Of a stretch of DNA of 64,000 nucleotides, positions 56,750 to 60,727 are shown one piece after another. The notes below the pieces were generated by a model. That model worked only from the letters and a program-made list of their open reading frames with translations. It was not told where the DNA came from and made no database searches. Position numbers and translations under genes: made by a program. This DNA comes from Thermoleophilia bacterium. GTDB lineage: Bacteria; Actinomycetota; Thermoleophilia; RBG-16-64-13. The stretch spans positions 496,001 to 560,000 of the forward strand of contig JAOSKU010000001.1 in assembly GCA_027493445.1 (NCBI GenBank), read 5' to 3'. Within the stretch, counting starts at the first letter, position 1. The number at the start of each line of letters is the position of its first letter.

Positions 56750-57514
56750 CTACACCACCAGGTTCCACTTGGCCCGCATGTCCTGCCAGCTCATGCCCGA
56801 GGAGGCATCGGCAGCGAACCCGGGGCCGTCCTTGGCTACGTCGGCGTAGACGCCCATGTCGTAGCTGGTGACGTACTCCTCGGAGACGGCGCCCCCACCG
56901 CAGACAAAGGGCAGCTCCACGCCTTCCTTTTTCAGCATGTCGGAGATCTTGGCGAACGCCGACATGGTGGTGGTCATGAGAGCCGTGCCCGTGACCAGGT
57001 GGGCCTTGTTGTCCTTGATAGCCTTCACCACTGTGTCTTCGGGCACGTCGGAGCCCAGGTCGATCACCAGGAAGCCGTTGGCCCGGATGAGGGCGGCGGC
57101 TATGTTCTTGCCGATGTCGTGGATGTCGCCGTGGGCGCAGTGCATCACCACCGTGCCCTTCTTGGTGGCTTTGCCTCCCATGGCGTCCTCGGCCTTGGTC
57201 AGGCCTACCATGAGGGCGTCAGAAGACAGGATCACCTGGGGCAAGAAGTAGACGCCGTCGTCCCAGAGCTTGGAGACCTCGCGCATGCCCGCGATCAGCG
57301 TATCGATGACCGTCTCGGGGCCCTTGGCGGCGATGGCTTTGTCGGTGGCATCTGAGACCACGTCCTCGTCACCATCCACCACCCCGCGGGCGATGGCCTG
57401 CAATACCGGGTCGGCACTCACGTCTTCCGCGCCCCGCTTCTTGGGGGCGATCTTGACGTCGTAGCGCACGAAGATAGGGGTGAAGTCGGCGATATCGGCT
57501 ACGGTCCTTGCCAT
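56750..57514 (-). CDS. mtaC: Methanol corrinoid protein MtaC
   Basis: The corrinoid-binding carrier that takes the methyl group from methanol via MtaB. 254 aa. The cobalamin motif HGDIHDIGKNI holds the lower-axial His, then a Rossmann-type B12-binding domain (GFLVIDLGSDVPEDTVV, LVTGTALMTTTM, PFVCGGGAVSEEY). An N-terminal four-helix cap domain spans about 35-115. AAGGAGGAG upstream of ATG 57514. Follows mtaB by 117 nt on the same strand. An MtaA-type transferase is not in the window. Confidence 0.92.
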   Translation of the reverse strand: MARTVADIADFTPIFVRYDVKIAPKKRGAEDVSADPVLQAIARGVVDGDEDVVSDATDKAIAAKGPETVIDTLIAGMREVSKLWDDGVYFLPQVILSSDALMVGLTKAEDAMGGKATKKGTVVMHCAHGDIHDIGKNIAAALIRANGFLVIDLGSDVPEDTVVKAIKDNKAHLVTGTALMTTTMSAFAKISDMLKKEGVELPFVCGGGAVSEEYVTSYDMGVYADVAKDGPGFAADASSGMSWQDMRAKWNLVV

Positions 57515-57631: not shown

Positions 57632-59005
57632 CTAGTAGCCGTAAGAGGTGGGGTCGAAGCCCGGCACCTTCTTGTACTCGCTCAGGCACATATCGACGAA
57701 GTCACCCTCGTTGTCCGGCAGCTGGTCCACCTCCTTGCGGGCCTTGTCGAGGGCCTCGCGCTCGTGCTCGGTGAGGACGAGCTTCTTGTCGGCGGCGATC
57801 AAGTCGGCCGTCTTCAGCACGGCCGCCTTGGAGCGCAGGTAGTAGCTGTCGACCTTGCTCACGATGGCCTTGCCGATCTCATAGGCGTTGTCCGGGGAGA
57901 GCATGAAGCCGTGCACGTCCCGGTACTTGTCGCTGGCGATGTTGATGTCCCGGAGCTCCTTGGCCGTGCCCAGCTCGATGGCCGCGTTCATCTGGGCCAC
58001 GTTGTAGCCCAGGATCTCGGTGAAGACCTCCACCGAGGAGCCCGCGAACATGTCGTGGTACTCCACGGCCTCGTTGCTCCACAGGTCCACCACCGCCGAG
58101 ACGATGTTGGATTGCATCTCGGAGTGGGCACAGGCCGAGGCCACGCCCTCCATGGAGATGGGCACCCCGGTGATGGCTTTGATGATGGGGTCCTCGTAGG
58201 CGCAGTCCTTGGAAGGGCCGGTGGCTCCCTGCTCGTAGGCCACGAGCGAACGGGCGGCCGAGCAGGCCCGGGCCAGGGCGGCGAAGGTGTGGGGCAGGTC
58301 GGTGGCCGTATAGCCGCCGGCCAGGAACATGGCCGTGTTGCCGCGGGCGCAGTCGGTGTCGCCCCCGGGGGTGATGTTGTTCTTCTTGGCGGTGGCTACG
58401 ATCTTCTGCCAGAGCCACTCCATGTCCCGGCTGGAGAGTACGCCGATCCCGAAGATGACGCCCTTGATGTCCTGGCGCTGGACGGCGTAGTCGAAGACCT
58501 CCTTGCCGCCCATGGACTCGATGGAGAGCACGTCGGCTCCGCCGGCTGCGGTGGACTCGAAGGAGGCGAGCATCCAGTCGAGCTCCTGGGAGTGGCGCAT
58601 GTGCACCATGTCGGGCTTGCGGAGGTCGGCTACCGTGGAGACCAGGGCGCTCTTGAGGCCGTACTTGTCGTAGTAGTCCTGCATCTGGCCCTTGGCCTGG
58701 GTGAAGATGGCGGCCGCCCACTCGGGCTGGCTGGTCATCTGGTAGATGTGCTCGAACTCGATGACCAGGCCCGGAAAGCCAAGAGCCACGCAGCGGCCCA
58801 GGGCGTCGTCGGTCATGCGTTGGTACTCGCGCAGGATCTTCTCTTTGGTCGCCTCACTCCCCGGACGGGGATGGGGCACGATCTGCGGGTAGACGTGCTT
58901 CTTGCCGAGCTCTATTGGACCGATGCCTATCGAGACCGGGTGCGGGGCAGTGCCGAAGATCATGTCATCCCAGCTCTTGTAGGCCATCGAAGTATACTTA
59001 GGCAT
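57632..59005 (-). CDS. mtaB: Methanol:corrinoid methyltransferase MtaB
   Basis: A zinc enzyme that activates methanol and methylates MtaC. 457 aa. The barrel region holds likely metal-binding Cys residues in PGGDTDCARGNTAMFLAGG and GPSKDCAYEDPI; VIEFEHIYQMT carries the conserved Glu region. Full length. Bacterial mtaBC pairs occur in methanol-using acetogens and related anaerobes. ATG 59005 follows GGAGGGAGACGC, and a conserved leader element with a mini-ORF lies directly upstream. Confidence 0.93.
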   Translation of the reverse strand: MPKYTSMAYKSWDDMIFGTAPHPVSIGIGPIELGKKHVYPQIVPHPRPGSEATKEKILREYQRMTDDALGRCVALGFPGLVIEFEHIYQMTSQPEWAAAIFTQAKGQMQDYYDKYGLKSALVSTVADLRKPDMVHMRHSQELDWMLASFESTAAGGADVLSIESMGGKEVFDYAVQRQDIKGVIFGIGVLSSRDMEWLWQKIVATAKKNNITPGGDTDCARGNTAMFLAGGYTATDLPHTFAALARACSAARSLVAYEQGATGPSKDCAYEDPIIKAITGVPISMEGVASACAHSEMQSNIVSAVVDLWSNEAVEYHDMFAGSSVEVFTEILGYNVAQMNAAIELGTAKELRDINIASDKYRDVHGFMLSPDNAYEIGKAIVSKVDSYYLRSKAAVLKTADLIAADKKLVLTEHEREALDKARKEVDQLPDNEGDFVDMCLSEYKKVPGFDPTSYGY

Positions 59006-59120
59006 GCGTCTCCCTCCGTTGCTGAATGGCGGGTCGGACCTCGCAGACCTCCGCAGGCGATGTGCCGCGTTGGGCCGGTCTGCAGGGAGTGCTGGGCGTC
59101 ACACCATACGCATCACCTCC
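59003..59120 (-). promoter_or_regulatory. mtaB leader element (copy A) with two-codon ORF
   Basis: About 115 nt directly before mtaB, shared with 60444-60560. It opens with GGAGGTGAT, then an ATG-GTG-TGA mini-ORF (59107-59099) at ideal Shine-Dalgarno spacing. Conserved islands include CAGACCGGCCCA, a CCTGCGAGG-like block (here TCTGCGAGG) and CAACGGAGGGAG, the last being the mtaB ribosome site. Probably a translated or structured regulatory leader. Confidence 0.65.
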
Positions 59121-59269
59121 CGAACGGTCGCGAGAATCGGCCGGCGGCCGAGCCCTCGAGGGTGGATGAGAGCATGTGGGTAGAGTCCAGGGATCTACAT
59201 CGAGCACCAGGCCTGCAGCAGCCTGGCTCGGGAGCCTGACGGTTTCCCGGCGAAGCATCCCGCCCTTTG

Positions 59270-59298
59270 GTTATACATCGGTTGTCCATACAGGTCAA
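59270..59298 (-). promoter_or_regulatory. Promoter of mtaB-mtaC
   Basis: TTGACC (59298-59293), 17-bp spacer, TATAAC (59275-59270) on the - strand: five of six matches in both boxes. The predicted start near 59263 gives a leader of about 255 nt, the last 115 of which are the duplicated element. The first 140 nt of the leader contain GC-rich potential hairpins but no riboswitch that I recognise. Confidence 0.75.
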
Positions 59299-59342
59299 TA
59301 GCCTCCGGTCCACTCGGTCCTCGCTCGGATCGAGCGCCGCAC

Positions 59343-59507
59343 CTATTCCACGAGGTAGCCGAAAACAAGCAGGTACAAGAGGCCCCACAGCGCCACGACC
59401 GACGACGCGACGTCACCGATCTCCAGGGCGCGCAGGATGAGGGTGGTCACCGTGGTGGCCGCCCCCACGACGAGGACTTCGAGAATAATCTTGTTTCTCA
59501 AGACCAC
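59343..59507 (-). CDS. Small membrane protein, 54 aa
   Basis: Two hydrophobic segments (IILEVLVVGAATTVTTLIL; VVALWGLLYLLVFGYLV). GTG 59507 is preceded by AAAGGAG at good spacing. Third gene of a three-gene - strand unit with 59557 and 59959. No family recognised. It ends 44 nt before the mtaB -35. Confidence 0.62.
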   Translation of the reverse strand: MVLRNKIILEVLVVGAATTVTTLILRALEIGDVASSVVALWGLLYLLVFGYLVE

Positions 59508-59556
59508 CGGCAATCTCCTTTCGACAGGCCTGGGTAGCCGCTGCCACACCGGTTGA

Positions 59557-59940
59557 TCACAGGCCGCGTATGAAGTTTCGCAGCCAGATGAAGAGCATGA
59601 TGAAGACCAGCACCCAGGCGACGTACGTCAGGGACATGAGCGGGTACTCGTCGACCGAGCCACCCACGATGCTCGGGGTGGCGTACTTGAACAGATACGT
59701 GAACCCGAGCCCCAGGGCGAGAAAAAGCACGGTTCCCACGAGCTTGTTGGCCACCCGCAGCCCTTCGGTGTTGGGAAGTCCCCAGTAGGCCGTGAGGGCG
59801 AGGAACCAGGCGATGAGCCACAGGTCGATGTCCAGTCCCAGGGTCCCCTTCTGGTTCCAGTCCAGCAGCCACATGATGAAGACGCTCACGGCGGCGAGTA
59901 CGATCACCGCCGCCAGAACGGCCAGTTTGCGCGTCAACAT
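59557..59940 (-). CDS. Small membrane protein, 127 aa
   Basis: Four predicted membrane segments (LAVLAAVIVLAAVSVFIMW; LWLIAWFLALTAYWGLP; LVGTVLFLALGLGFTYLF; LTYVAWVLVFIMLFIWL). GGGAGGGG upstream of ATG 59940. Second gene of the unit, 18 nt after the 130-aa gene. No recognised family. A transporter or energy-coupling subunit is conceivable. Confidence 0.68.
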   Translation of the reverse strand: MLTRKLAVLAAVIVLAAVSVFIMWLLDWNQKGTLGLDIDLWLIAWFLALTAYWGLPNTEGLRVANKLVGTVLFLALGLGFTYLFKYATPSIVGGSVDEYPLMSLTYVAWVLVFIMLFIWLRNFIRGL

Positions 59941-59958
59941 GCCCGTCCCCTCCCTTCC

Positions 59959-60351
59959 TCAGACGAGGCCTAGGTGTTGGACGAGCACGAACCACGCGAA
60001 GCCCCAGTGCAGGGGCAGCAGAGAAAGGACCATCTCCTGATTCGTGGCAAAAGCACCGTCGCCGGTCAGGGTCATGGACAGGGTCACGGAGGTCACCGTG
60101 CCGATGAAGGCGATGGCGGTCCCGACGGCCTTGCGGAGCGTGGCCCGCTCGGAGCGCTCTCCCTCCAGGCCCATTCCAAGGAAGGGGCCGTAGAAGAAGA
60201 TGAAGAACAGGATCCAGTAGGCGAGAACGGCTGAGAAGAGCGTCGCACTGGTAAGATCAGGGGACACGTAGAAGAAAGCCCAGGTAACGGCCACTCCGGT
60301 GGCCACCATCAGCAGGAAGGTCAGGATGCGCTCTGCGGTGGGGGAGTTCAT
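59959..60351 (-). CDS. Small membrane protein, 130 aa, first of operon
   Basis: Four predicted membrane segments (LTFLLMVATGVAVTWAFFYV; LFSAVLAYWILFFIFFYGP; AVGTAIAFIGTVTSVTLSM; LPLHWGFAWFVLVQHLG), with a charged loop (GEGERSERATLRK-like) after the second. ATG 60351 overlaps the stop of a 32-aa leader ORF (ATGA) and follows GGGGGAGGGAT. No family recognised. Position beside mtaCB and a shared leader suggest a role in methanol metabolism. Confidence 0.68.
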   Translation of the reverse strand: MNSPTAERILTFLLMVATGVAVTWAFFYVSPDLTSATLFSAVLAYWILFFIFFYGPFLGMGLEGERSERATLRKAVGTAIAFIGTVTSVTLSMTLTGDGAFATNQEMVLSLLPLHWGFAWFVLVQHLGLV

Positions 60352-60446
60352 GCCGATCCCTCCCCCGGCACTGGAAAAGTGCCACAAGTCACAAAGAGTC
60401 CCGGACCTCCGTGCCGGCGAGCAAAAGTCGAAGCATACACAGGCAT
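60348..60446 (-). CDS. 32-aa leader ORF resembling the MtaB N-terminus
   Basis: ATG 60446 follows CAACGGAGGAAGGTGC, as for mtaB. The first residues MPVYASTFA parallel MtaB MPKYTSMAY, after which the sequences diverge. The stop TGA overlaps the ATG of the 130-aa gene. It may be a leader peptide giving translational coupling, or the scar of a lost mtaB copy. Confidence 0.5.
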   Translation of the reverse strand: MPVYASTFARRHGGPGLFVTCGTFPVPGEGSA

Positions 60447-60560
60447 GCACCTTCCTCCGTTGTGAGGTTGGATGAGTCCTCGCAGGCCATCCCCGCCTGG
60501 CTGGGCGAGGTGGGCCGGCCTGTTTGGAGAGGGTCATGTCACCTCATCGATCACCTCCTT
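60444..60560 (-). promoter_or_regulatory. Leader element copy B, upstream of membrane operon
   Basis: Homologous to 59003-59120: AAGGAGGTGAT followed by the mini-ORF ATG-AGG-TGA (60547-60539), then CAGGCCGGCCCA, GGCCTGCGAGG and CAACGGAGGAAG before the ATG at 60446. Mini-ORF position and both Shine-Dalgarno sites are kept although the middle has diverged. Confidence 0.65.
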
Positions 60561-60698: not shown

Positions 60699-60727
60699 AG
60701 TATACAAACACGCATCAAGGGAGTCAA
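60699..60727 (-). promoter_or_regulatory. Promoter of the membrane-protein operon
   Basis: TTGACT (60727-60722), 17-bp spacer, TATACT (60704-60699) on the - strand, near consensus in both boxes. It faces away from rpsO. It gives a leader of about 250 nt to the leader ORF, similar to that of mtaB. Confidence 0.7.

Follow-up and report, generated by a model that had tools for sequence, protein, structure and literature searches.

Why should a methyltransferase gene carry, far ahead of its own ribosome site, a second Shine-Dalgarno (SD) sequence that appears to serve no gene? The question is raised by mtaB, the methanol:corrinoid methyltransferase gene of a Thermoleophilia bacterium (GCA_027493445.1), found in a window of 64,000 nucleotides (nt) that is the whole stretch of DNA analysed here (contig JAOSKU010000001.1, positions 496,001 to 560,000). 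The mtaB leader contains an extended upstream SD, hereafter the orphan SD, followed by a two-codon open reading frame (mini-ORF). An earlier note on this DNA had described the leader together with a second copy before a neighbouring membrane-protein operon (copies A and B below) and had proposed a translational switch. We find that the orphan SD recurs before mtaB in several phyla, usually with no ORF behind it. On balance we favour the reading that it acts as a ribosome-docking site similar to the STAB-SD of cry3A, or as the ribosome-binding site (RBS) of a mini-ORF, which shields or promotes the mtaB mRNA. A search of open-licence papers yielded no previous account of mtaB leaders.

In mtaB leaders of other phyla (MtaB 54-62% identical) the mini-ORF is absent and a strong extended SD stands at the same place. 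We scored such sites by the energy of the duplex with the 16S rRNA tail, which was assumed to be GAUCACCUCCUUUCU for all genomes rather than read from each. Among 38 leaders in which mtaB is the first gene, spanning Actinomycetota, Bacillota, Desulfobacterota and Chloroflexota, 31 have a site at or below -13 kcal/mol and 29 at -15 kcal/mol, located 72-151 nt before the start codon. The site is specific to mtaB: 74% of the 35 discovery leaders, which include those that suggested the idea, reach -15 kcal/mol vs 4% of 100 other genes (Fisher p = 3e-16), and 11% of 100 other genes of the same loci with intergenic upstream DNA reach -13 kcal/mol. In 26 of the 35, the site is stronger than in dinucleotide shuffles of the same leader at p <= 0.05, and all three leaders fetched later (L122, L123 and L124) carry an orphan SD. 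It is also stronger than the SD of mtaB itself (median -17.6 vs -13.3 kcal/mol, paired p = 6e-7).

Sequence flanking the orphan SD is otherwise unrelated between phyla, and the complementarity to the rRNA tail shifts between leaders (GAAAGGAGG in L047 and L052, GGAGGTGAT in L034 and L048). Since the match slides along the tail, pairing with rRNA is indicated, rather than a protein or DNA site. We take GAAAGGAGG, present in L047, L048 and L052, to be the core of the cry3A STAB-SD. Where mtaA or mtaC precedes mtaB, a strong orphan SD can instead stand before the first gene of the operon (mtaA in L033 at 2046 and L056 at 2047; mtaC in L035 at 3129) but was not seen there in L036 and L037. The site is absent from a distant MtaB group of 37% identity in Desulfitobacteriia (mtaC directly upstream, mostly a GTG start), and was found in none of 28 usable MttB-type leaders, whose start calls are rough and about half of which lie behind an upstream ORF. 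Sites of unclear meaning occur in three leaders of the 37% group (L130, L132 and L143). Separately, two weaker SD-like sites stand ahead of the gene in L092 and L093, at about -190 and -120 relative to mtaB; behind the second come ATG-GGT-TTA and a short ORF.

The strong upstream SD is usually kept across the 32 more distant mtaB leaders. Analysis of what follows it reveals no preference for a start codon: outside the window's family, one lies 4-11 nt behind the site in 6 of 26 leaders, against 10.2 expected. This points to ribosome binding rather than an ORF as the conserved feature, and an SD conserved without a start codon would indicate an mRNA-protecting or ribosome-loading site. To judge from these leaders, the widely conserved feature is the orphan SD, to which the mini-ORF has been added locally. 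The orphan SD of L122 (genome G553), GGGAGGGGGG, lies about 75-84 nt before mtaB and is directly followed by ATG-TAA, a start and stop with no sense codon between them.

Twenty-six leaders show a recognisable sigma54-type promoter. All 22 of these that have an orphan SD possess long predicted leaders (97-184 nt), in which 11-91 nt separate the site from the predicted start. The four that lack it (L039, L043, L046 and L051) have predicted lengths of 34-91 nt; all four belong to Desulfobacterota-type MtaB, and the leader-length rule may therefore partly reflect ancestry. A strong site in L043 was dropped because of its position upstream of the predicted sigma54 promoter.

Within the family to which the window belongs, a very short ORF follows the site. 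Copy A consists of GGGAGGTGA, ATG-GTG-TGA, CAGACCGGCCCA, CTGCGAGG, CAACGGAGG and the mtaB ATG at 59005, with about 95 nt between mini-ORF and mtaB that close with the gene's own SD. Only six of the 199 genomes of the class contain mtaB, and all six belong to this family. In the window's mtaB leader and its five relatives, a start codon follows a GGAGG- or GGGGG-like core at a distance of 8-9 nt. At the position of the window's mini-ORF we find ATG-ACC-TAG in G001 (L010), ATG-GAG-TGA in G013 and G004 (L013 and L014), and four-codon TTG ORFs in G010 (TTG-GAT-AGG-CGG-TAA) and G014 (TTG-GAT-TGG-CGG-TGA; L011/L012); the SD of G004 is weaker (GGAAAGG, GGAAAGGTG). Including copy B, the middle codon differs (GTG, AGG, ACC, GAG) and the stop is kept; the change from TGA to TAG in L010 is double and still yields a stop. 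Because the middle codon varies freely, neither a conserved peptide nor a tRNA-specific stall is indicated. The leader recurs before homologous mtaB genes, and the mini-ORF and both ribosome sites are kept in four of four close leaders, which supports this part of the earlier note's interpretation. Since the family leaders cover three genera only, they offer suggestive rather than strong grounds for selection on the mini-ORF. Stop readthrough from the mini-ORF into mtaB was considered and rejected, as the two are in frame in copy A, L010 and L013 and out of frame in L014, copy B and L011.

A covariance model of the five two-codon leaders, a check that had been proposed with the original description, was searched over the 199 genomes. 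It matched copies A and B and a single copy each in G001, G004 and G013 at E < 1e-25, the last three before mtaB; the remaining matches are weak (E of at least 2e-3 per genome), and nothing clear emerged beyond these five known copies.

Copies A and B are truly homologous, and the two elements are present with the block order described for them. Their local alignment scores 87 over about 135 nt, compared with a mean of 20.8 (standard deviation 3.6, maximum 42) in 2000 dinucleotide shuffles and 41 for the next best unrelated stretch of the window (both strands). BLAST of copy A against its own genome missed copy B because the two share no long exact word. The homology extends past the start codon, about 18 nt into the mtaB codons (ATGCCTaaGTATaCTTCGA / ATGCCTgtGTATgCTTCGA), and copy B is therefore best seen as the mtaB translation-start region, transplanted and since diverged. 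In copy B (60560-60444) the blocks after the mini-ORF are those of copy A, followed by ATG-CCT at 60446. This ATG-CCT had been read as the start of the membrane protein; it is present, but begins a 32-codon ORF whose end overlaps the start of the first membrane gene. Copy B was not found in the same operon of the same-genus genome G001, so the transplant is either recent or was lost there.

Predicted sigma70-like promoters lie upstream of both mini-ORFs, and transcription starting downstream of them, which the earlier note had held to be incompatible with its proposal, is thus not indicated. The promoter of the mtaB leader was missed by the scanner's strict rule and is an eye reading only; TTGAC..-TATAA boxes of a similar kind lie upstream in L010 and other leaders. 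The features of the locus are collected below.

Table. Features of the mtaB locus and the adjoining membrane-protein operon (window coordinates)
Feature	Position	Strand	Remarks
mtaC-like corrinoid protein	56750..57514	-	PF02310, PF02607; NF040655 240 bits, under cut-off 420
mtaB, methanol:corrinoid methyltransferase	57632..59005	-	Pfam PF12176 E = 5e-194; NF040651 646 bits, under curated cut-off 720
mtaB own SD AACGGAGGGA	59011..59020	-	-12.1 kcal/mol
Copy A candidate hairpin GCAGACC...GGTCTGC	59039..59083	-	within genus only; copy B has one compensatory change
Copy A two-codon mini-ORF ATG-GTG-TGA	59099..59107	-	8 nt 3' of GGAGG; kept in L010, L013, L014
Copy A orphan (upstream) extended SD GGGAGGTGA	59113..59121	-	16S-tail duplex -17.7 kcal/mol; shuffle p = 0.003
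Predicted sigma70-like promoter, mtaB leader, TTGACC-17-TATAAC	59270..59298	-	predicted start near 59263; read by eye
Small membrane protein 3, 54 aa	59343..59507	-	no family match
Small membrane protein 2, 127 aa	59557..59940	-	no family match
Small membrane protein 1, 130 aa	59959..60351	-	no family match
Copy B 32-codon ORF, mtaB-derived first codons (MPVYAS...)	60348..60446	-	TGA overlaps ATG of next gene (ATGA) at 60351
Copy B two-codon mini-ORF ATG-AGG-TGA	60539..60547	-	6 nt 3' of GGAGG
Copy B upstream extended SD AAGGAGGTGAT	60550..60560	-	sequence
Predicted sigma70-like promoter, membrane-protein operon, TTGACT-17-TATACT	60699..60727	-	promoter scan

The three-gene operon of small, family-less membrane proteins (59343-60351, minus strand) adjoins mtaB in the window and likewise in G001 (L015 486-1480), and parts of it also lie upstream of mtaB in G004 and G013. 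A link between this operon and methanol use is possible. Elsewhere in the window's genome we note 15 MttB-type matches. In two of them the reading crosses a single TAG, as it does in methyltransferases that contain pyrrolysine, and in one it crosses two TGA codons (readthrough coordinates G000:C1:117642-119036, G000:C1:89130-90533; G000:C1:4427833-4429275).

How might the orphan SD act? Under the reading we favour, the mtaB mRNA would possess a second, unusually strong docking site about 100 nt upstream of its real start, at which a 30S subunit or an initiating ribosome could park. The parked ribosome would bar nucleases that enter from the 5' end (RNase J-type) or that cut endonucleolytically in the long leader, and the message for this high-demand enzyme would thereby be longer-lived or better used. 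In the window's family, a start with a near-immediate stop may let the initiating ribosome leave directly with no protein made, and the transplanted copy B would put the neighbouring membrane-protein operon under the same type of leader. Of 35 genomes, 32 encode RNase J (TIGR00649). Among them is the window's own, where its gene (G000:C1:561719-563347, plus strand) lies about 1.7 kb past the end of the window. More tentatively, the mtaB mRNAs of several phyla may share a dedicated ribosome-docking element kept as rRNA complementarity and not as a fixed sequence, from which one actinobacterial family may have made a start-one codon-stop module movable as a unit to another operon; we hold this broader picture to be possible but somewhat doubtful.

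Other explanations were also weighed. The orphan SD could be a ribosome-loading (standby) site, with a captured 30S subunit moving to, or re-initiating at, mtaB and raising initiation with mRNA life unchanged. The greater strength of the orphan SD and its fairly constant distance from mtaB would suit such a site, as would the largely paired state predicted for the gene's own SD in the GC-rich family (mean unpaired 0.26); yet 72-150 nt is far for sliding, and elsewhere the own SD is strong and predicted to be open (0.66), which leaves loading a rather unlikely account. In the translational switch proposed by the earlier note, initiation on the two-codon ORF would stall, drop peptidyl-tRNA or sequester ribosomes, and so tune mtaB to methanol or C1 status. 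The persistence of the two-codon ORF in copies A and B, L010, L013 and L014 despite the changing middle codon, the conserved stop of L010 and the short TTG ORF in its place in L011/L012 all speak for it. However, most other SD-bearing mtaB leaders lack the mini-ORF, neither middle codon nor peptide is conserved, and no conserved structure joins the two ribosome sites. A switch with the mini-ORF as its active part is not supported by the distant leaders, and we regard it as unlikely; the object first described is nonetheless real and conserved, and the leaning towards regulation reasonable.

We give still less credence to the two remaining explanations. For a structured regulatory RNA (riboswitch or anti-SD switch) with the SD as one arm, one can cite the hairpin GCAGACC/GGTCTGC of copy A and L010 and its compensatory counterpart CAGGCC/GGCCTG in copy B. 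Yet thermodynamic folding of seven leaders gives z-scores of -0.39 to +1.19 in A, B, L010, L013 and L014 and of -1.5 and -2.0 in L011 and L012; the candidate hairpin is weak because the scores are near 0, and RNAalifold on five leaders does not keep it in G004 and G013. Rfam yields no match at gathering threshold and none meaningful at E <= 5, in agreement with the earlier statement that no known riboswitch is recognisable, and the covariance model recovers the five known copies only. We therefore find neither a conserved structure with covariation nor a known riboswitch family by Rfam, folding, RNAalifold or the covariance model, and consider this explanation very doubtful. Scarcely credible is a leader peptide or small protein gene upstream of mtaB: although some Bacillota leaders can be read from a GTG inside GGAGGTG to an end near mtaB (L034 and L049), this GTG falls within the stretch complementary to rRNA and has no separate SD at the usual distance, and the readings, of 2 to about 38 codons, show no conserved sequence even in the near relatives L038, L041, L042 and L044.

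Several observations weigh against the protective docking site that we favour. The orphan SD is predicted to be accessible to an ordinary degree only (0.45 unpaired on average, equal to the leader mean of 0.45), 7 of the 38 leaders have no site at the -13 kcal/mol threshold, and the significance tests carry no phylogenetic correction. RNase J is so common that its presence discriminates little. In the window's family about 140 nt separate the site from the predicted transcript start, unlike in cry3A, where it is near the 5' end, and a mycobacterial case of stabilisation required translation of at least 20 codons (PMC2358910).

Stabilisers of the STAB-SD type are known from few single genes. 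If our reading is true, a docking site would be tied to one gene family across phyla, with the site-less leaders as natural contrasts, and a general rule would become testable, namely that a long leader, where one is kept, is guarded by a parked ribosome. This bears on how anaerobes make methanol methyltransferase in large amounts, and could offer a compact natural mRNA-stabilising module for acetogens and other anaerobes.

Comparison with known systems places the orphan SD near two kinds of element, STAB-SD and the mini-ORF RBS; the likeness appears to be anatomical and does not establish membership in either. The STAB-SD of Bacillus thuringiensis cry3A binds the 30S subunit without starting translation and blocks RNase J (PMC4113751; reviewed in PMC3997798). 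Like it, the orphan SD is complementary to the 16S 3' end (with the tail as assumed above) and stands well up in the 5' untranslated region, with about 100-130 nt between it and the real start, in genomes that encode RNase J. Most distant leaders have no start codon behind the SD, so that it would not direct translation there; in the window's family a mini-ORF follows. Unlike cry3A, mtaB mRNAs are mostly sigma54-driven and come from several phyla, and the window's family combines the mini-ORF with a site some 140 nt from the predicted start.

The family also has the anatomy of a mini-ORF RBS protector, with a very short ORF (two codons in A, B, L010, L013 and L014, four in L011 and L012), a strong RBS and a long leader. 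In espADB (LEE4), according to accounts of Lodato et al. (2012) in PMC8708949 and PMC3997798, RBS occupancy at a six-codon mini-ORF, not its peptide, protects the mRNA. There, as here, a long leader contains a tiny ORF with a strong RBS well ahead of the first gene; as described in those accounts, the espADB leader differs in being AU-rich, in involving RNase E and in its six codons, whereas the mtaB leader is GC-rich and has two codons. The start-one codon-stop minigenes of axe-txe and of the LEE1 ler leader likewise lie in leaders and act in cis on the next gene (PMC8708949). The mtaB mini-ORF sits about 95 nt upstream of its gene and is missing from most relatives. Similarly, a purine run stabilises katG mRNA in mycobacteria (PMC2358910). 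It resembles the orphan SD as an SD-like purine run in an actinobacterium; unlike the orphan SD, the katG polypurine is only four bp away from the start codon, upstream of it, and has a second role in katG translation.

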